A stretch of DNA of 64,000 nucleotides from Methanosalsum zhilinae DSM 4017. Lineage in GTDB: Archaea; Halobacteriota; Methanosarcinia; Methanosarcinales; Methanosarcinaceae. Under the pieces are notes generated by a model. The model was not told the DNA's origin and did no database searches. It saw nothing but the letters and a program-made list of their open reading frames with translations. Where the stretch lies: NCBI RefSeq assembly GCF_000217995.1, contig NC_015676.1, positions 1,032,103 through 1,096,102 on the forward strand, given 5' to 3'. The position numbers were made by a program, and so were the translations under genes. This document shows positions 10,553 through 22,516 of this stretch, piece after piece (positions within the stretch are counted from its first letter, which is position 1; each line of letters starts with the position of its first letter).

Positions 10553-12022
10553 TCATTTCTTTTGTTCTTTTCTCAGGATCATGAACATGGATATGCCAAG
10601 CAGGCCGACAATTAGAAGTAATGGACTCATTGTCGGAACTGAGAAAAGAGCTGCACAGAAGTCGTTTGGTTCACGGAGTTCACCTGTGGATGGACAGTCT
10701 GCGGGTGGACAAACATCGATCATTTCTGCTGCAAATGGATCATATTCCACATTCATTGAGATTGAGTCTCCTGAACCCGGGCCTTCGCCCGAAGGTCCAG
10801 AGCTGTCACCCCACCAGTTGCTGGTAGCAGTGACAATCTCATCGCCATTATTTATGTTGACCAGTCCCTCCTCATTGTCATAAATGTTGTTGTCCTGTAC
10901 TGTAGTGTTTTTAACCTGGAAGTTCTCTCCACCACTGACAAGTATTCCATATTTATTATTGTATAGATCATTGAATTTTAGAGTATTGTTCGTGGTAGGA
11001 CCATATGAATTGTATCTGTAATCATTGGTGATTCTGATACCTGCTGTTGAATTATAGATTTCATTGCACTCAAATACAATATTGTGGCAAAGATATGCCA
11101 GGATTCCATCAGCAGGATTTATACCCCAACTGGGACTTGTCCGGTTTTCATTGTCAAATATTGTATTTCCCTTTACAAGTGATTCACTTTCAGGATCAAC
11201 AATTCCAGGTATTGATTCGTTGTGGTTTATCTTGTAAAGTAGAAGGCCTGGACCTTTGTTTTTGTATATCTTATTATTTTCAATTGTGACATGAGTAATT
11301 CCTGCATCATGGGCTTTCGAATAAACTATTATTCCACCAACCCGATGATCACTTGATCCAATCGCTCCAGCATTCTCATTTTCATACACTTCATTACAGG
11401 AAATAGTGACCATTCCAGTGCCAGAAACAGAACCTACATTAACATAAATTCCTCTTTCTACATTATTGGAAACAAGGTTATTGAGAATGCTACCATAGGA
11501 ATAAAATGTGATTCCATCACCATCATTAGCAATAGCCTTACTGTTCTGGATAGTTCCATTTTGATCATATCGAACCCTTATACCGTCATTGGAATTATTA
11601 TGAGATACGATATTATCTATCACTACTCCCTCTGTCTTATCAGCATAAACACCGCGATTAGGTGAGCTGTGAACCTCAAAGTTCTCAACAGTAACGCCTG
11701 CGGTCTGGTCAATAAAAATTCCATATCCACTTGTAAAGCTTGATAGGTTGAGTATACTGGTAGGCACACCATTGTCATCTGTAGATCCAACCAGCTTTAG
11801 GTTGGACTTGTTTATATAAATTATCAGTTGTTCCTCATAAATTCCAGGGCCCACTTCAATAGTATCTCCAGGGTCTGCACCATCAATAGCATCCTGGATA
11901 GAGTCACCTTCTTCTACAGATATTGTAGCTGCACCTGCTGCTCCAACCATGCCAACAATAAAAGCTAGCACCAAACAAGCAACAATAAAAATATTAGTTG
12001 ATTTTTTCTTTGATCTTAACAT
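10553..12022 (-). CDS. Secreted right-handed beta-helix (NosD/pectate-lyase-like) surface protein
   Basis: A 489-residue exported protein. A basic N-terminus and hydrophobic stretch (signal peptide ending around AGA) are followed by SIQDAIDGADPGDTIEVGPGIY, the opening of NosD/PbH1 repeat proteins, then about ten parallel-beta-helix coils with recurrent N-x-I-x-x-N patterns (residues about 60-420). The C-terminus has one hydrophobic helix plus RKEQKK, a membrane anchor, after a short Cys-containing stretch. Such proteins are common in methanogen cell envelopes; ligand or enzymatic activity cannot be predicted. It is monocistronic with its own terminator. Confidence 0.8.
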   Translation of the reverse strand: MLRSKKKSTNIFIVACLVLAFIVGMVGAAGAATISVEEGDSIQDAIDGADPGDTIEVGPGIYEEQLIIYINKSNLKLVGSTDDNGVPTSILNLSSFTSGYGIFIDQTAGVTVENFEVHSSPNRGVYADKTEGVVIDNIVSHNNSNDGIRVRYDQNGTIQNSKAIANDGDGITFYSYGSILNNLVSNNVERGIYVNVGSVSGTGMVTISCNEVYENENAGAIGSSDHRVGGIIVYSKAHDAGITHVTIENNKIYKNKGPGLLLYKINHNESIPGIVDPESESLVKGNTIFDNENRTSPSWGINPADGILAYLCHNIVFECNEIYNSTAGIRITNDYRYNSYGPTTNNTLKFNDLYNNKYGILVSGGENFQVKNTTVQDNNIYDNEEGLVNINNGDEIVTATSNWWGDSSGPSGEGPGSGDSISMNVEYDPFAAEMIDVCPPADCPSTGELREPNDFCAALFSVPTMSPLLLIVGLLGISMFMILRKEQKK

Positions 12023-14883: not shown

Positions 14884-15723
14884 TTATTTTAAAATTGCAA
14901 TTTCAGTTTCAGTAATTCTATTTGATTCTTTTTCAGGAAATATTTCATTTTTTATTCGCCTATAACAATTTTCAGCTATCGTAGTATTACCCTGAATTTC
15001 AATTATATCAAAACCAAACAATGATGCAAAACTATCAATATTTTCTTCAAAATTTGGTTCATAATTTAACCCTGTGTTTATTTTAGCTAACACATCTATC
15101 CCCATTTTCTTAAAAAACAATTTTTTAGTTTTATCTTTTTTCATTGTTCTTTCAAGATCTCCAAACAAAATATCCCAATTTGAAGCCCACATGGGTGTAA
15201 AGAAAATAGCTTTTGGATACTGCTTAAGTATCTGGTAATACTCATCATCACCTCCAAGAGCAAGTGAAACACAATCGGTTACTTTTGATGATTTGGTATT
15301 GTCATAATTTTCCAGAATCCGAATGACTGTATCAGTTTCATCAAAATCTGAGTTGATGTCTCTGAATGCTTTTCCACAGGAACCATAAAATAATAATATA
15401 CCTTTAGCATACTTAGAATATTTTTTGATAATGCTATAAGTTTCAGATTTCAGTTTATTTGGGCATGAATGAAGATGTTTTGGTTGAATCACTATTACAA
15501 CAGTAAGAGTATCTATGTTGTAGCCATGATTCACAAACTTTGATTTGAACATATCCTCATCAGCAATTTCAGGAGTTATATCAGTACTTCTGAATTTTTC
15601 TACCAAATCTGAAATCTCTCCGTTATCTATTATTATAGTTCTCTCAATGCTGGTATCATCTGACAAGATATGAACAATCTCATCTTCTAAAATTTTACAT
15701 CCAATTAAAAATAAAAACGTCAT
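14884..15723 (-). CDS. DUF1638 family protein
   Basis: A 279-residue soluble protein of the DUF1638 family (PF07796), common in methanogens and other corrinoid-using anaerobes. It shows the family features GCKILEDEI at the start, LLFYGSCGKAF in the middle and FTPMWASNWD near residue 175. Genes of this family often occur near methylamine methyltransferase or corrinoid-activation genes, but no such gene is adjacent here. The function is unknown, although the Cys residues (GC near the start, GSCG) suggest metal or corrinoid contact; this is inference. Confidence 0.75.
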   Translation of the reverse strand: MTFLFLIGCKILEDEIVHILSDDTSIERTIIIDNGEISDLVEKFRSTDITPEIADEDMFKSKFVNHGYNIDTLTVVIVIQPKHLHSCPNKLKSETYSIIKKYSKYAKGILLFYGSCGKAFRDINSDFDETDTVIRILENYDNTKSSKVTDCVSLALGGDDEYYQILKQYPKAIFFTPMWASNWDILFGDLERTMKKDKTKKLFFKKMGIDVLAKINTGLNYEPNFEENIDSFASLFGFDIIEIQGNTTIAENCYRRIKNEIFPEKESNRITETEIAILK

Positions 15724-16155: not shown

Positions 16156-19100
16156 TCAAATTTTTCTCCTAAATCCAACATAAATGGCGATTACAGCCAT
16201 CAGAACAATTATTGCCCCTATGATTTCAGAACTCGAAAATGAAGGAGCAAATCCAGAATCTGCTTTATCTTCTGCGGATCTTGTTTCCATTTCATACCCC
16301 TCTACATAATCCGAAGACGGTGCTTGAGGCTGCTCACCCTCAGTTCCATACCCAATATCCTTTACAATAGTGTGGTTAGTCTGACTATGATCTCTGATTG
16401 TTGGTGTAGCCAGGTCAGAACTGCTACTACTGGATCTTCTACTGGTTTCTCCGATATCTGCAGAAGATGGTTCTCTGTGAGTTGCTTCCTGCATAATTCG
16501 TTGGTATTCTGATGCAAGATCATCCGAAACTACACCAGGAACTGACATGAGACCCTGTACATATGAATCAAGGGATGGATTTCCACAGGTATGGTGACAG
16601 CATGTAACACCATTGTTAACCACAGATTCAACATACTCTTTAACAAGCTGGTTTAAGATCTCTGAATCCGCATTCCAGTATTCTTTTCGGGCAGTTTCGA
16701 GCATTCTACCTGTCATAGATTGATAAGCATGGGGATTTGCATCTTTGAAAAATTCATTTACACCAAGATCATATTTGTCTTCAACGTATATGTCATATAT
16801 CTCATTCCAATCAGAATCTGAAATAAGATCAGGTGTAACCACATTCCAGCCCCACATATGCTCTGTGAACTTCATAAATTCACGTGCACCAGCATAATCA
16901 TGTTCCATCATACCCTCAACCCATTGCGGATTGAAATATCTGGCACGCAACTCTGTTCTCATAGATTCCCTTAAGGTTGCAATACGCAGATCATTTGGAT
17001 TCTGTAATTCTGCAATATACATCTCTGGATTACTACCTGTAACTGATCTTACAGCAAGACCAAGTCCACCAAGATAGGAGAACACATCATCATTGTCAAA
17101 GTGACCATACAAGTTAGAACTTCGACTGTGAATTGCAGAATCTACGTTCATTAAATTAAGTCTAAGAATTGATTCATAGCTGTCACCCCAAATCTCTTTT
17201 CCATATATATTTGACATTTTGCTGATAAAAAGATCAGCAAGTTCGTTTTCGTTATCCCAGGTATCACTAGCATCTATAGCTTCTGAAAGTCCTGTGCCAT
17301 AAGATCCGGGAGCTTCACTAAATATACGTGCCTTTGACAGGTACTCAGCATCGGCTGGATCAAAGCCAGCATCAAGAAGTGCCTGTTCTATTTCAAGTGA
17401 ATGAGCACGTACATAATTGTTTTCTGCGGATTCATTAAGAGCAGCTACCATCCTTATAGCCTCATCGATCATTTCTAACTGGTATGGATAAGAATCACGA
17501 TACAGGCCTGAAGGCATGACGGTTACATCAATTCTGGGATGAGTCATATCTTCTAGTGGTATTACTTCAAAACCAGCAAGTCTGCCCCACTGCCTAACAG
17601 GTTCTACACCCAGTAAAGCATGTATCTGTGCCTCCATCAGGCCTTGATGTCTCATCGTTTCAACTGACCAGAGAATAAAGCCAACATTTCGTGGATATTC
17701 TCCATGTTTGGCCTTATAATCATTTAACATGTCTTCAGCTAGAGCTGCTCCAAGTGCAGAGGTCTCCGGATCGGGAATGGCCCTCTGATCGAAACTGTAG
17801 AAGTTCTTTCCAGTAGGTATAGCTGCTGGATTTCTAATAGGGTCATTGCCAGGACCCGGGGAGATATATTCTCCATTGAGTGCTCTTAGAGTATTAGTTA
17901 TCTCCTGTGTTGCAAGTTTGAGATTTTCAGCATATGTGTTGCCTAAATCCAGATTATCAGTAATGCTCTGATCAACAGTTCCAATCACTTTTTGCTGTGC
18001 ATCGTCGACTGATGTAAAATTGAGTAGCGTTTCATTCAACATAGCATCGGCATACACGTGTGCTTGGTTTTCTCTATCTTCACTGCATGTTATATTTGAA
18101 TCCACGTGATACTCAATATTAGATATGAAATCATTACCAAGCATTGCTTTGACTGTTGTCACAAGACGCATATCCTCAGGAGGGGTACCGAATATATGAA
18201 GACCCATTGGCATTAAGGAGTAACCAATACGGTGTAAATAATCATGTAATTCTCCTTTGGCAAAACTTTCAAACTCAGAATTATCCATGTTCCTAAGCTC
18301 ATCAACAGAAACACCAAGATCAGTATCAAAACCAAGAATTTCATAGTACTCAGTTACGGTCTCACGATATGAATCAGCAAGAGCTGTGTTGTTTGCTGCG
18401 ACTGCATCTTCATAGGAATGAACCCTATCATGTATTGTAGCAAGATCGCCATAGAATCCTGCATTTGATACTGGTGGTATCAAATGGTCGATTATCACTG
18501 CATTACCACGTCTTTTGGATTGAGTACCCTCACCTACATTATCAACTATATAAGGATATATTACAGGAGTATTTGCAACCATAATCGAGGGATAGTCATA
18601 TTTCCAAAGACCGGTTTCCTTACCAGGTAGCCATTCCTGAGTTCCATGTGTACCAAAATGAATTATTGCATCTGCCTCAAACACGTTGTTTATCCAGAAG
18701 TATGTAGCAAGATACTGATGTGTAGGGGGTATTGACTTGTCGTGATACAATATTGATTTATCTGAGTGCCAGCCTCGCATTGGCTGGGGAACTAATATAA
18801 CATTTCCAAATTCTGTAATTGGTATAACAAATGAATCTTCATAGACCATGAGTTCGCCTGGTGCTTCACCCCACGTAGCTTCAACTTCTGCTCTTACAGA
18901 TTCAGGTAGTTCATTATACCAAACAAGATAATCGTTTTTGGGAACCAGAACAACGCTCCCTTCACTCACTACCTTCTCCAGTTCACCCGGAGCCCAATTA
19001 CCCACGTTCCTGTTTGCTTTAAGCATCTCTATAAGCTCACTGCCATTTGGAATAGGCTCAGAAACTGTGTAGCTGTTTAACTGCATATTCTCAAGTAGTA

Positions 19101-20760
19101 GAGGTAGACTTGCAGGGACATTGAGGTAACTTGCACCTATATCTGCTTTGCCTCCTCCATAGTTATAGTAGATTATACTGACTTTTTTATCTGAGTTATC
19201 CATATGTCTAAGTTTTGCCCAATTGATTGCCCGGTCACAAAGCCATTCTACCTGTTCCATAATCGGCTCATAGTACCATCTTTCTGTAACAGGATCCTGG
19301 GTTCTGCCTGCTATCCATATATAGTCTGTTAAACCTTCTATCTCAGGTTGTATTATTTGTGAAGCAAGTGTTGTAGAGTCGCTAATTCCACGAACACTTG
19401 CATTGTAACCTTCGGGGCATAGGTTATAATCCTTAACTCCTTTCAAAATAGGTACATTATACTCTTCTAGATAAGATACAGATGTAGCATAATCGAAGTT
19501 TAAGTAAAACATTTTGGTTGAGATTAAAACATCAACAATTGTTTCATTATCCTTGACGAAATAATCTACATCATGACTGAAAGCTCTTGCTGAACCAAGA
19601 ATCACATTCATTTCCTTTGATTCAAGATACCGAATCATAGTATCTTCAGTTTTCCAATCGATTTCATCAGAAGCAAGTGTACCAACAACAATACCAATTG
19701 TCGGAGATGTGGAATCATAATATCCTTGCTGATCATACCATTCAAAGTATTCTGCAGAGTTATCGAAAATCAAAGGAAAGGCATCTGGATGATAGAGGCC
19801 GTGCTGAGGAATTGCTGGCGGAGCTGGTAACGAGTACTCAATATAAGCTTTTTTTATCATATTGCCTGTAAAACGTATCCAGTTCTCCATATTTGCAAAA
19901 CCGTTATTTCTTTGATATTCCTTCATGATATTATAAGGCTCATCGTCGATTACAAACGTCTGCTCTGCATCACCGGCACCTGCAAACTGTCCGATCTCAA
20001 CACCAGCAGCTTTTGCATCCTGGAGAAGTGATTTCAGACCCCCTTCGTGATAATCTTGATGTCCTACCATATACAGAATAATTATATCCTGGTCAGTAAG
20101 GTCATCTATGGTATTTACTGCTTCACTGCTGCTCACAACAACAATATTGAAACGTTCAGCTATTACTCGCCTGTCATTGATAACATTCTTCATGAAATGT
20201 CGATTGGTATCTGAATTGATAATATAGGTAATGTTGATCTTTTGTTGAATAATTTCAGGCTCTGGAATATCTTCTCCTATCCAGAGATCACTGAATTTTT
20301 GTCCCATGAACATCAACATATTCTTGATGTTGGAATCTCCACCCTGGGTCCAGTATCTTTCAATATCAGTATACTCTTCTGTATATAGGTCGATATTGTT
20401 AGCAGTGAAGTTGGAACTTAAGTTATAACCAATCACACTATTATTGTTTTCAGTAGCGTTTATCAGGTCAAGTTCCCATGAATCCAGAATATTTTCTTCC
20501 TGGGATTCAAGGAAAATGATCGAGTAGTTAGAAAAATTAAGGTCTGATGGAATACTATCAGCTTTTGAAAATATAGTAAGATTTATTTTATCTGAAATGT
20601 TTTGATTTGAAGCAACATTTTCAATTGCCTGTTTGTTTGTATCTGTTCCTAAAATGAACAGGTATTCATCTTTTACAGTCTCCTGTGCCGATACTACAGG
20701 CATTGCTAATAATGCCAGCAATACACTTAAAAGAATTAAAGTACTATTTCTTCTTTGCAT
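16156..20760 (-). CDS. Surface-anchored CobN/BchH-family chelatase (HmuS-like)
   Basis: A 1534-residue CobN/BchH superfamily protein. Family motifs are clear: FGTHGTQEWLPGKETGL, then NVGEGTQSKRRGNAVIIDH, RIDVTVMPSGLYRDSYP and GSYGTGL. Unlike cytosolic CobN and ChlH, it has an N-terminal signal peptide (ending VVSAQ) and a C-terminal hydrophobic helix followed by FRRKI, so the catalytic body should face outside. Start ATG 20760 has GAGGAGATAAC upstream. It ends an operon with DUF2162, ExbB-like and DUF2149 genes; no CobS/CobT or BchI/D AAA+ partner is present. The same gene grouping occurs around HmuS, a CobN-like haem dechelatase of Bacteroidetes. Role proposed: inserting or removing metal from haem or corrinoid outside the membrane, with energy from the motor protein. 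Confidence 0.85.
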   Translation of the reverse strand: MQRRNSTLILLSVLLALLAMPVVSAQETVKDEYLFILGTDTNKQAIENVASNQNISDKINLTIFSKADSIPSDLNFSNYSIIFLESQEENILDSWELDLINATENNNSVIGYNLSSNFTANNIDLYTEEYTDIERYWTQGGDSNIKNMLMFMGQKFSDLWIGEDIPEPEIIQQKINITYIINSDTNRHFMKNVINDRRVIAERFNIVVVSSSEAVNTIDDLTDQDIIILYMVGHQDYHEGGLKSLLQDAKAAGVEIGQFAGAGDAEQTFVIDDEPYNIMKEYQRNNGFANMENWIRFTGNMIKKAYIEYSLPAPPAIPQHGLYHPDAFPLIFDNSAEYFEWYDQQGYYDSTSPTIGIVVGTLASDEIDWKTEDTMIRYLESKEMNVILGSARAFSHDVDYFVKDNETIVDVLISTKMFYLNFDYATSVSYLEEYNVPILKGVKDYNLCPEGYNASVRGISDSTTLASQIIQPEIEGLTDYIWIAGRTQDPVTERWYYEPIMEQVEWLCDRAINWAKLRHMDNSDKKVSIIYYNYGGGKADIGASYLNVPASLPLLLENMQLNSYTVSEPIPNGSELIEMLKANRNVGNWAPGELEKVVSEGSVVLVPKNDYLVWYNELPESVRAEVEATWGEAPGELMVYEDSFVIPITEFGNVILVPQPMRGWHSDKSILYHDKSIPPTHQYLATYFWINNVFEADAIIHFGTHGTQEWLPGKETGLWKYDYPSIMVANTPVIYPYIVDNVGEGTQSKRRGNAVIIDHLIPPVSNAGFYGDLATIHDRVHSYEDAVAANNTALADSYRETVTEYYEILGFDTDLGVSVDELRNMDNSEFESFAKGELHDYLHRIGYSLMPMGLHIFGTPPEDMRLVTTVKAMLGNDFISNIEYHVDSNITCSEDRENQAHVYADAMLNETLLNFTSVDDAQQKVIGTVDQSITDNLDLGNTYAENLKLATQEITNTLRALNGEYISPGPGNDPIRNPAAIPTGKNFYSFDQRAIPDPETSALGAALAEDMLNDYKAKHGEYPRNVGFILWSVETMRHQGLMEAQIHALLGVEPVRQWGRLAGFEVIPLEDMTHPRIDVTVMPSGLYRDSYPYQLEMIDEAIRMVAALNESAENNYVRAHSLEIEQALLDAGFDPADAEYLSKARIFSEAPGSYGTGLSEAIDASDTWDNENELADLFISKMSNIYGKEIWGDSYESILRLNLMNVDSAIHSRSSNLYGHFDNDDVFSYLGGLGLAVRSVTGSNPEMYIAELQNPNDLRIATLRESMRTELRARYFNPQWVEGMMEHDYAGAREFMKFTEHMWGWNVVTPDLISDSDWNEIYDIYVEDKYDLGVNEFFKDANPHAYQSMTGRMLETARKEYWNADSEILNQLVKEYVESVVNNGVTCCHHTCGNPSLDSYVQGLMSVPGVVSDDLASEYQRIMQEATHREPSSADIGETSRRSSSSSSDLATPTIRDHSQTNHTIVKDIGYGTEGEQPQAPSSDYVEGYEMETRSAEDKADSGFAPSFSSSEIIGAIIVLMAVIAIYVGFRRKI

Positions 20761-20852
20761 GTTATCTCCTCGGTAATATGCTAACATCCCGGAACATTGC
20801 TTGCAGGCGTTTCCGGGGTGTCAAACTTCTTATCAGATTATCAATATTTTAT

Positions 20853-21218
20853 TCAATCAACGGTTTCCATTTTGTTTCCATTTTCAGGAACGTAAATCAC
20901 TCTCCCATCTGCCAGACGGTATGCTGTACCCATGGCTTCACCACTGCCACCACCAATATGTTCGGTCATATCAAGAATTTCAATTGACTGTCCCTCTTTT
21001 ATGACGATCTGCATGTCCTCCTGACCGGGATTCTTGATGATTGTTACGTCCTGGGTAGGATCAAGCATTTCAGGCATGTTGAATGAAAATACCATGGCTA
21101 TCAACAATGCAACAGAAAATACCATTGCTACATCAAACAGGTTAGCTACACTTGTTAGCGGATTCTGCTCTTCAGCATCACTTAGCAAACCCGTTCTACG
21201 ATATCTTCTTGATTTCAT
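20853..21218 (-). CDS. DUF2149 protein, ExbD-like single-span partner
   Basis: A 121-residue protein with a charged N-terminal tail (RRYRRTGLL), one membrane helix at about residues 24-47 (LFDVAMVFSVALLIAMVF), and an external domain of about 70 residues. The helix bears an Asp (LFDVAMV) in the same place as the ion-carrying Asp of ExbD/TolR, and the topology (short inside tail, one helix, outside domain) is the same. This is the DUF2149 family (PF09919), regularly found with MotA/TolQ/ExbB and CobN-like genes in methanogens. It would form the second half of an ion-driven motor contacting the chelatase. Its stop lies 92 bp upstream of the chelatase start; its start abuts the ExbB-like gene directly. 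Confidence 0.8.
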   Translation of the reverse strand: MKSRRYRRTGLLSDAEEQNPLTSVANLFDVAMVFSVALLIAMVFSFNMPEMLDPTQDVTIIKNPGQEDMQIVIKEGQSIEILDMTEHIGGGSGEAMGTAYRLADGRVIYVPENGNKMETVD

Positions 21219-21839
21219 TTACTTACCCTCCAGTGTGTTGAGAATGTAATCAATATCAGCCATATCCTGCCAGTACCATCTTTTTCTTACCTGTGTGAGA
21301 ACATAGGCAATACTTCCTGCAAATAACCCAATTACTGTAGTTGCAAAGGCTACTATCAGATTATTTGCAAGCTGTTCTATATTGCCCTGAGAAAGACCTA
21401 TCAGTGCTGGTCCCAGTGGAATCAATGTTCCCATCAGACCCAGCATCGGGGCAACTGCAGCAATCACACGGGTCTGCTCAAGATTTTTTGCCATCTTAAT
21501 TTCATAATCTTCAGAAATCCATTCAATTGCAGGAATACGGTTAACTTCCAGATGCTTTGCTGCAGAATTTGCAAAGGAAGTAACAATATTTGTCTGCTTG
21601 AGTGTTTTTAGCGATTTAGCAGCTCCTGCAAAGTCTGAACACTGCATACGTTCCTGTACCGACAGGCAGGTTGATTCTAAATTCTCTACATCTCTATTTC
21701 GTTTTGAATATTCGGATAAGAATTCTCCTATCAATATCAGGGATAGTAAAGATAGAAGTAGCAATACAACAATCACAGGATAGAGAAGAGAAGATGAAAA
21801 TGTATATAGTATCCCAAATATTAGAGAAGTTGGATCCAT
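21219..21839 (-). CDS. MotA/TolQ/ExbB proton-channel family protein
   Basis: A 206-residue protein with three membrane helices: one near the N-terminus (residues about 12-40), then a cytoplasmic domain, then two helices (residues about 122-195). The second carries VAPMLGLMGTLIPLGPALIGLSQG, the ExbB/TolQ/MotA signature, including the conserved Thr facing the ion path. Such proteins convert proton or sodium motive force into movement of a partner. Archaea lack the TonB/outer membrane system, so the likely client is the neighbouring CobN-like surface protein. It starts five bases after the DUF2162 gene ends and abuts the DUF2149 start. Confidence 0.9.
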   Translation of the reverse strand: MDPTSLIFGILYTFSSSLLYPVIVVLLLLSLLSLILIGEFLSEYSKRNRDVENLESTCLSVQERMQCSDFAGAAKSLKTLKQTNIVTSFANSAAKHLEVNRIPAIEWISEDYEIKMAKNLEQTRVIAAVAPMLGLMGTLIPLGPALIGLSQGNIEQLANNLIVAFATTVIGLFAGSIAYVLTQVRKRWYWQDMADIDYILNTLEGK

Positions 21840-21844
21840 TTTTT

Positions 21845-22516
21845 TTAATCACCTTTTAGTTTATTTATTGCATAGCTACTGAGAACAATAGCTGCAATGA
21901 TCAGCAGGGGTGCCAGTTGAAACTCTCCTCCCGATGCGGTAATATTGAGCTGTTTGGACTGCATATAAGCAGGAATTAGCATAGCACCGAGCAGGTAAAA
22001 AAGGCCAAGAAACATCATCACAGTCCCAAGATCTTCTGGTGTGCGGTTCATTTTGCCAAATAACCAGCTAGAAGACAGAATCGAAATAAAAAAGACAGCA
22101 CCTACAAAAGTACCTATAATCCATCCACTCCATGTAACTGTTGTTGCAAGAACAATGCAGGATAGAATTAAGGCACTCAAGCAGGCAGGACATGGAACTG
22201 CTAAAAATAAAAATGTCTTTCTTGAAACGTCATGGCCACACAGCCATTTTTTTTGTGTGTATATTCCTGCACCAATCAAAAACAATGCAATTATTGCATG
22301 TAAAGTTACACCCAGACCAAGTATTTCAGTTAAAACAGAGATATCAATAAAGGCCAATAAAATTCCAATTAGAAATGATAGTGCTAAATAGCTTGAAGCT
22401 ATTAGCAAAATTTGCTTTTTGTCGATACTTGAGAAACCGCAACCTATTCCGGTTTTGAGCCCTATGACAAATATCCCCAGTACTATTCCAGCAATAACAG
22501 CTATACTAGTTCCCAT
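21845..22516 (-). CDS. DUF2162 polytopic membrane protein
   Basis: A 223-residue protein with about seven membrane helices, of the DUF2162 family (PF09930, annotated as putative transporter). Visible features are GLKTGIGCGF near residue 25 and AVPCPACLSALILS near residue 110, whose C-P-x-C resembles the DsbD/CcdA or metal-transfer style of paired cysteines in a membrane helix. It could move electrons or a metal/tetrapyrrole across the membrane. It is the first gene of the four-gene operon ending with the chelatase, and the family is found in this arrangement in methanogens. Function otherwise unknown. Confidence 0.8.
   Translation of the reverse strand: MGTSIAVIAGIVLGIFVIGLKTGIGCGFSSIDKKQILLIASSYLALSFLIGILLAFIDISVLTEILGLGVTLHAIIALFLIGAGIYTQKKWLCGHDVSRKTFLFLAVPCPACLSALILSCIVLATTVTWSGWIIGTFVGAVFFISILSSSWLFGKMNRTPEDLGTVMMFLGLFYLLGAMLIPAYMQSKQLNITASGGEFQLAPLLIIAAIVLSSYAINKLKGD

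Follow-up and report, generated by a model that had tools for sequence, protein, structure and literature searches.

A four-gene unit of Methanosalsum zhilinae that may encode an extracytoplasmic chelatase powered by ion motive force, for recovery of cobalt or possibly nickel from tetrapyrroles

The DNA analysed here, called the window throughout (64,000 nucleotides (nt); positions 1,032,103-1,096,102), belongs to the genome of the methanogenic archaeon Methanosalsum zhilinae DSM 4017, a single contig of 2,138,444 bases, and carries on its minus strand a head-to-tail run of genes, seen in the list of open reading frames, for a DUF2162 membrane protein, an ExbB-family protein, a DUF2149 protein and a large chelatase of the CobN family (Table 1). 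Gaps of 5, 0 and 65 nt between the four genes fit an operon. The initial annotation had described four reverse-strand genes in tight order, and all were found where it placed them, with agreeing Pfam families: PF09930 for DUF2162 (E 3.5e-65), MotA_ExbB PF01618 for ExbB (E 9e-13, above cut-off), PF09919 for DUF2149 (E 8.6e-36) and CobN-Mg_chel PF02514 for the chelatase (E 0, residues 290-1376).

Table 1. The four genes and their notable segments, numbered from the first base of the window.
Feature	Position	Strand	Remarks
CobN/HmuS-family exported chelatase (predicted), 1543 aa	16156..20787	-	genome's only PF02514 protein (genome-wide profile search)
Signal peptide of chelatase (predicted), residues 1-34	20686..20787	-	sequence and hydropathy
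HFGTHG motif of chelatase, residues 710-715	18643..18660	-	alignment with HmuS
DNDDVFSYLGG of chelatase, residues 1231-1241	17065..17097	-	Asp-Asp signature; HmuS counterpart LSLDHVYEFMGG
C-terminal membrane helix and basic tail of chelatase (predicted)	16156..16230	-	hydropathy
DUF2149 protein, 121 aa, HmuV homologue	20853..21218	-	helix at residues 20-47, small predicted extracytoplasmic domain after it
ExbB/TolQ/MotA-family stator-like protein, 206 aa, HmuU homologue	21219..21839	-	genome's only PF01618 protein
DUF2162 multi-helix membrane protein, 223 aa	21845..22516	-	predicted transporter, weakly NicO-related
PCPAC motif of DUF2162, residues 108-112	22181..22195	-	aligned with PCPAA of a NicO-family protein

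The chelatase, whose translation may in fact begin at the ATG of codon 10, opens with a signal sequence (...LLSVLLALLAMPVVSA followed by QE) and closes with a hydrophobic helix at about residues 1522-1540. Both segments had been noticed at the outset, and their hydropathy values of 2.7 and 2.9 strongly suggest a protein exported and anchored at the membrane. Its His714 lies in the HFGTHG motif, a superfamily-wide feature, and aligns with His538 of HmuS, which is essential for haem turnover in B. theta (PMC12583661); the position of HmuS Glu577 is kept as well. At HmuS positions 1208/1209/1212 the aligned chelatases fall into two main residue classes: Asp-His-Glu, found in HmuS, a few archaeal paralogues and Azospirillum, with ChlH reading Asp-His-Asp; and Asp-Asp-Gln, found in the CobN proteins of S. 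meliloti and Tsukamurella, in T. lovleyi, Comamonadaceae, Diaphorobacter and Pseudoalteromonas, and in most archaeal exported chelatases. The protein of the unit reads Asp-Asp-Ser.

Automatic annotation labels this protein CobN, which would make it a classical cobaltochelatase inserting cobalt into corrin, with its AAA+ partners encoded elsewhere or dispensed with. It does share with the catalytic subunits of CobNST and ChlHID their fold and HFGTHG-type motif, and with CobN also the Asp-Asp active site; weak and partial ChlI-like AAA+ matches occur elsewhere in the genome and leave some room for a distant partner. However, those enzymes are cytosolic and driven by ATP through AAA+ subunits, whereas an exported protein would have neither ATP nor corrin precursor at hand, and the operon holds no AAA+ gene, as had been pointed out before. 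The chelatase, moreover, scores under all CobN and ChlH equivalog cut-offs of NCBIfam (1189.5 against 1619 for the best model, 610.9 against 822 for TIGR02257) and falls outside the CobN/ChlH group in both trees. Cobalt insertion in anaerobic archaea is an early step carried out by CbiX, and a classical cobaltochelatase is altogether very improbable here.

The closest solved structure is instead that of HmuS (9d26), the Bacteroides haem de-chelatase encoded in the hmuYRSTUV haem operon of Bacteroidota, an exported class I chelatase that, like the archaeal protein, has N- and C-terminal membrane helices (PMC12583661, PMC13227078). Downstream homologues of ExbB (HmuU) and DUF2149 (HmuV) accompany 46 of 55 Bacteroidota hmuS loci, with profile matches of about 1e-41 for HmuU to ExbB and 1e-30 for HmuV to DUF2149. 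The parallel with HmuS had been drawn at the outset; the homology of all three proteins now makes the chelatase-ExbB-DUF2149 triad common to both domains, with the chelatase gene beside ExbB-family and DUF2149 genes, no AAA+ partner and the catalytic His kept. In phylogenetic trees, a branch supported at 0.993 (FastTree) and by SH-aLRT 100 (IQ-TREE) sets HmuS, bacterial cassette CobNs and archaeal exported CobNs, including that of M. zhilinae, apart from cytosolic CobN, ChlH and archaeal cytosolic CobN. This strongly supported branch points to a larger group of class I chelatases that are exported and associated with a motor, HmuS being one long branch within it, and the M. zhilinae protein shows all the features by which we define that group.

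Such kinship raises the possibility that the protein is an HmuS of archaea, converting haem to protoporphyrin IX and Fe(II) outside the membrane and so supplying iron, a reading that the structural match, the homologous HmuU and HmuV partners and the kept His538 and Glu577 positions would favour. Members of the HmuS family are recognised by their haem-binding Met79 and His254-Gly-Arg where head and neck meet, by an insertion rich in Met, and by the motif LSLDHxxEFMGG, which includes His1209 (PMC12583661). In the alignment, the axial ligands are absent from the archaeal chelatase (Met79 is Val, His254 is Met, HGR is MFY), LSLDHxxEFMGG is replaced by FDNDDVFSYLGG, with DDxxSY for DHxxEF, and the Met-rich insertion of domain IV is missing, the aligned blocks being separated by 62 residues against 219 in HmuS (about 157 fewer). 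On these sequence grounds, identity as an HmuS-type haem enzyme was rejected; the homology behind the earlier parallel holds. Furthermore, HmuY, HmuR and HmuT are all lacking, with DUF2162 in place of the unrelated HmuT and no outer membrane, and the neighbours of related units are cobalt and B12 genes, not haem genes, all of which makes haem de-chelation improbable.

The other two members of the triad are the putative motor proteins. ExbB keeps two channel threonine positions (GLMGT..., ATTVIGL...), as in ExbB-ExbD-TonB and TolQR systems, and matches the solved structures of TolQ, MotA and ExbB weakly. DUF2149 has one confident helix, at residues 20-47 (AlphaFold pLDDT about 90 for 31-40), in which Asp29 is invariant among 34 homologues, recalling the essential-looking Asp of the partner helix in those systems. 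The likeness to ExbD proposed for DUF2149 thus holds for the single helix and its Asp; it does not extend to a PF02472 domain match, and by its sequence the outer domain appears not to be ExbD-like. The PF01618 search recovered the ExbB of the unit as the only MotA/TolQ/ExbB protein in the genome, the PF02472 search found no ExbD there, and we know of no archaeal outer membrane that a TonB system could energise, which leaves the chelatase as the obvious client and bears out the earlier remark that the motor has no other evident job. In T. lovleyi, moreover, a complete ExbB-ExbD-TonB set lies directly downstream of a cassette of TonB-dependent receptor (TBDR), DUF2162, ExbB, DUF2149 and CobN, and because this separate set exists, ExbB/DUF2149 is unlikely to be simply a TonB energiser.

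Co-inheritance argues in the same direction. Among 120 genomes of the order, 69 have both CobN and DUF2149, 5 CobN only, 2 DUF2149 only and 44 neither (Fisher p 1e-24, with genomes taken as independent despite kinship); the co-occurrence survey proposed at the outset was thereby carried out, with 113 of 120 concordant. DUF2162 is confined to genomes that bear DUF2149 (64 of 71). Throughout the family, often with further exported CobN paralogues following, and in more distant families too, the genes stand in the order DUF2162-ExbB-DUF2149-CobN. Genome G097, from the same genus, has none of CobN, DUF2149 and DUF2162, which indicates that the unit is gained or lost as a whole and is accessory within the genus. 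Together, co-inheritance and gene order give strong support to the chelatase working with ExbB/DUF2149.

Motor modules of this kind also occur apart from the chelatase. ExbB/DUF2149 pairs without CobN were seen at loci such as L104, L105, L107, L108, L109, L111 and L112, some with a DUF2162 fused to TPR repeats, and such modules adjoin exported beta-helix (NosD) or BatD-like proteins, which suggests a general, reusable archaeal extracytoplasmic motor.

For DUF2162, the CPxC motif (P108-C109-P110-C112) is invariant in 19 archaeal homologues, and the archaeal profile matches one NicO-family protein with hhalign probability 56 and E 1.1e-4, its PCPxC aligning with the PCPAA of that protein, whose gene adjoins cbiMQO and cbiDE. 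PF09930 also gives weak matches to MarC and to NicO-like proteins near cbiM. Relative to NicO/RcnA and LysE-superfamily transporters, the likeness is a weak one around the PCP motif, no significant fold match accompanies it, and the transport role is predicted. An electron conduit, one of the roles first imagined for this protein, gives way to a weakly indicated ion permease of NicO/MarC type. A counterpart of HmuT was also considered and rejected, as no homology was detectable (hhalign probability 0.3%).

The indications of a substrate come from the neighbourhoods of relatives. In several archaeal families, units of this kind run in the same direction as neighbouring cbiM(N)QO cobalt-transporter genes or cbiTLFG/cbiD/E B12 genes. 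One member of the same order (L106) has a single run of CbiM, a 96-aa protein, CbiQ, CbiO, DUF2162, ExbB, DUF2149 and CobN, in which the CbiO and DUF2162 genes overlap by 4 nt and CbiD and CbiE lie divergently upstream. In addition, cbiM/cbiQ flank the unit at six further loci (L158, L165, L166, L170, L174, L177), cbiT-cbiL-cbiF-cbiG adjoin it at three (L175, L176, L178), cobT lies beside it in L176 and cobyric acid synthase in L184, and an orphan exported CobN adjoins CbiM-CbiN (L117); family models were run on the proteins of L178, L176 and L184, the other B12 neighbours being assigned by sequence likeness. Overall, 11 of 50 CobN cassettes have cobalt or B12 neighbours, against 0 of 22 ExbB/DUF2149 modules lacking CobN (p 0.015, a value that ignores kinship). 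CbiM occurs in 115 of 120 genomes of the order and is so nearly universal that its presence alone is uninformative.

Bacterial context, drawn from plasmid records, is consistent with this picture. On pSZ77/pGLOV01 of Trichlorobacter (Geobacter) lovleyi (PMC3403914), two tandem cobalamin riboswitches precede a TBDR gene and then the same DUF2162-ExbB-DUF2149-CobN order, with bza and cob genes adjoining; this bacterial cluster, whose active site reads DNDDFFQYLGG, differs from the archaeal unit in that receptor, in its upstream riboswitches and in the ExbB-ExbD-TonB set that follows. On a Comamonadaceae plasmid, a cobalamin riboswitch precedes ExbB-DUF2149-CobN. A cobalamin riboswitch in Azospirillum was rejected as a control element of the unit there, lying downstream of it. 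The Pseudoalteromonas region bears no annotation. Taken together with the form of the active site, the neighbourhoods favour cobalt/corrinoid (or nickel) chemistry over haem.

Nickel merits separate weighing, the proposal being that F430 or another nickel tetrapyrrole is its source and that it goes to methyl-CoM reductase, CO dehydrogenase or hydrogenase. Methanogens need much nickel. On a Runella slithyformis plasmid (L142), ExbB-DUF2149-CobN sits inside a NiFe hydrogenase hyp operon, accompanied by a TBDR, and the DUF2162 slot is taken by a protein with a weak NicO/DsbD_2 match (compared directly with DUF2162, it gave no match); nikR lies near the Azospirillum unit, DUF2162 itself is weakly NicO-related, and PF01891 takes in nickel and cobalt importers alike. 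The neighbours, however, are B12 genes (cbiD, E, T, L, F, G, cobT, cobyric acid synthase) and cobalamin riboswitches, and no nickel gene was found beside archaeal units, which leaves nickel as the dedicated substrate rather improbable.

The same riboswitches and receptors would also suit a corrinoid uptake device, in which intact cobamides would be captured extracellularly by the chelatase-like protein and then released or moved across the membrane by the motor, with no metal chemistry involved. At one locus an exported protein with a B12-binding domain (PF02310; L121:12375-12929) is encoded between two exported CobN genes, and a paralogous group of exported CobNs lacks the catalytic His538 and carries EHPMVAAYFGG-like motifs (L157, L162, L183, L089 (7287), L098 (9770), L099 (1605), L179 (6764)); these paralogues are perhaps non-catalytic. 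The M. zhilinae protein, on the other hand, keeps the catalytic His and Glu, the transporter genes recognised beside archaeal units are cbiM/cbiQ (BtuCDF was not systematically searched for), and the NicO-like protein in the Runella slot suits an ion, so that uptake of intact corrinoids is unlikely.

The explanation we favour, at a probability of about 0.5, is that the unit uses ion motive force to power an extracytoplasmic chelatase and so recovers cobalt, or possibly nickel, from tetrapyrroles. The four proteins would form one membrane complex, in which the exported, anchored chelatase would bind a metallated tetrapyrrole in its class I cleft (His714, Asp1233/Asp1234) while ExbB and DUF2149, as an ion-driven stator-like motor replacing the ATP-driven CobST or ChlID motors, would work it mechanically; the removed metal, most likely cobalt and possibly nickel, would pass to DUF2162 for import, or alternatively to the CbiMNQO-type importer encoded beside the unit in several relatives. 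The parts differ in strength. Action of the motor on the chelatase is likely, its mechanical coupling being what we infer; cobalt or nickel in a tetrapyrrole as the metal is moderately supported by the context of relatives; removal for import would be the direction by analogy with HmuS, which de-chelates without ATP (PMC12583661), and from the importers beside the unit; and metal import by DUF2162 is speculative.

Several points weigh against this proposal. Neither the window nor the M. zhilinae family has cobalt or B12 genes beside the unit, the link coming from relatives; upstream neighbours in Methanosarcinaceae are seemingly unrelated genes that give no substrate clue, and the archaeal cobalt-linked cases come mostly from one family (f10), kinship that the test above disregards. 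The Asp-His class also adjoins cbiM (L166, L179), making the active-site signature no clean predictor of context, and the chelatase, as aligned, has Ser where its Asp-Asp relatives have Gln. On the structural level, the AlphaFold model of DUF2149 is of low confidence outside the helix and too weak for fold comparison, a profile search of solved structures with DUF2149 returned no ExbD and only a chance-level ComE match, and the search of the PDB with DUF2162 gave a best E no lower than 0.26. Cobalt in corrinoids is chemically inert, so that simple de-metallation is demanding. Finally, purified HmuS is active without HmuTUV (PMC12583661), from which it follows that catalysis may not need the motor, or that the motor may serve transport.

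A search of the available literature found no paper on the archaeal unit or its cobalt context, and the use that archaea make of HmuS/CobN/ChlH homologues was called unclear in 2025, archaea being without complete hmu operons (PMC12583661). Wagner et al. (2012) reported the T. lovleyi CobN without CobS/CobT, and the passages found there do not describe the ExbB/DUF2149 pair (PMC3403914). Earlier comparative genomics listed CbtX among predicted cobalt transporters in Methanosarcinales (PMC2667541); CbtX may be DUF2162 or the NicO-like protein, and the cobalt link may thus have been partly anticipated. Stripping metal from tetrapyrroles for import is a job not earlier assigned to such an archaeal unit, and the cobalt/B12 context provides a first testable substrate for archaeal exported chelatases, suggesting that many "CobN" annotations in anaerobes denote metal-acquisition enzymes and not B12 biosynthesis enzymes.

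HmuU and HmuV have been assigned to powering HmuR at the outer membrane (PMC12583661), yet the occurrence of ExbB/DUF2149 beside a chelatase in cells without that membrane, together with the separate set of T. lovleyi, makes powering an outer-membrane receptor unlikely as the general job of the pair. We put forward tentatively, with somewhat less than even confidence, that ExbB/DUF2149 directly works a chelatase pulling cobalt (or nickel) from corrinoids or other tetrapyrroles and handing the metal to a dedicated importer and, by extension, that HmuUV power HmuS and not HmuR. If true, the HmuUV of gut Bacteroidota would be reassigned accordingly, and ion motive force would be an energising principle for the chelatase superfamily distinct from AAA+ ATPases.

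Further observations concern relatives and neighbours. Cytosolic archaeal CobNs (L113, L115, L116, L105, L114) have their Asp-Asp/Asp-His signature replaced by a Cys-rich motif of CCC type, GCCCYFGxHGG, and adjoin ECF-type ABC genes, in L113 also PQQ-propeller lipoproteins. Near the M. zhilinae unit, the window encodes an exported, NosD/beta-helix-like repeat protein with a C-terminal membrane anchor (10553-12022), and a NosD-type gene likewise lies near the exported CobNs of L121. A DUF1638 gene adjoins an exported CobN in both genomes (window 14884-15723; L121:19135-19901).

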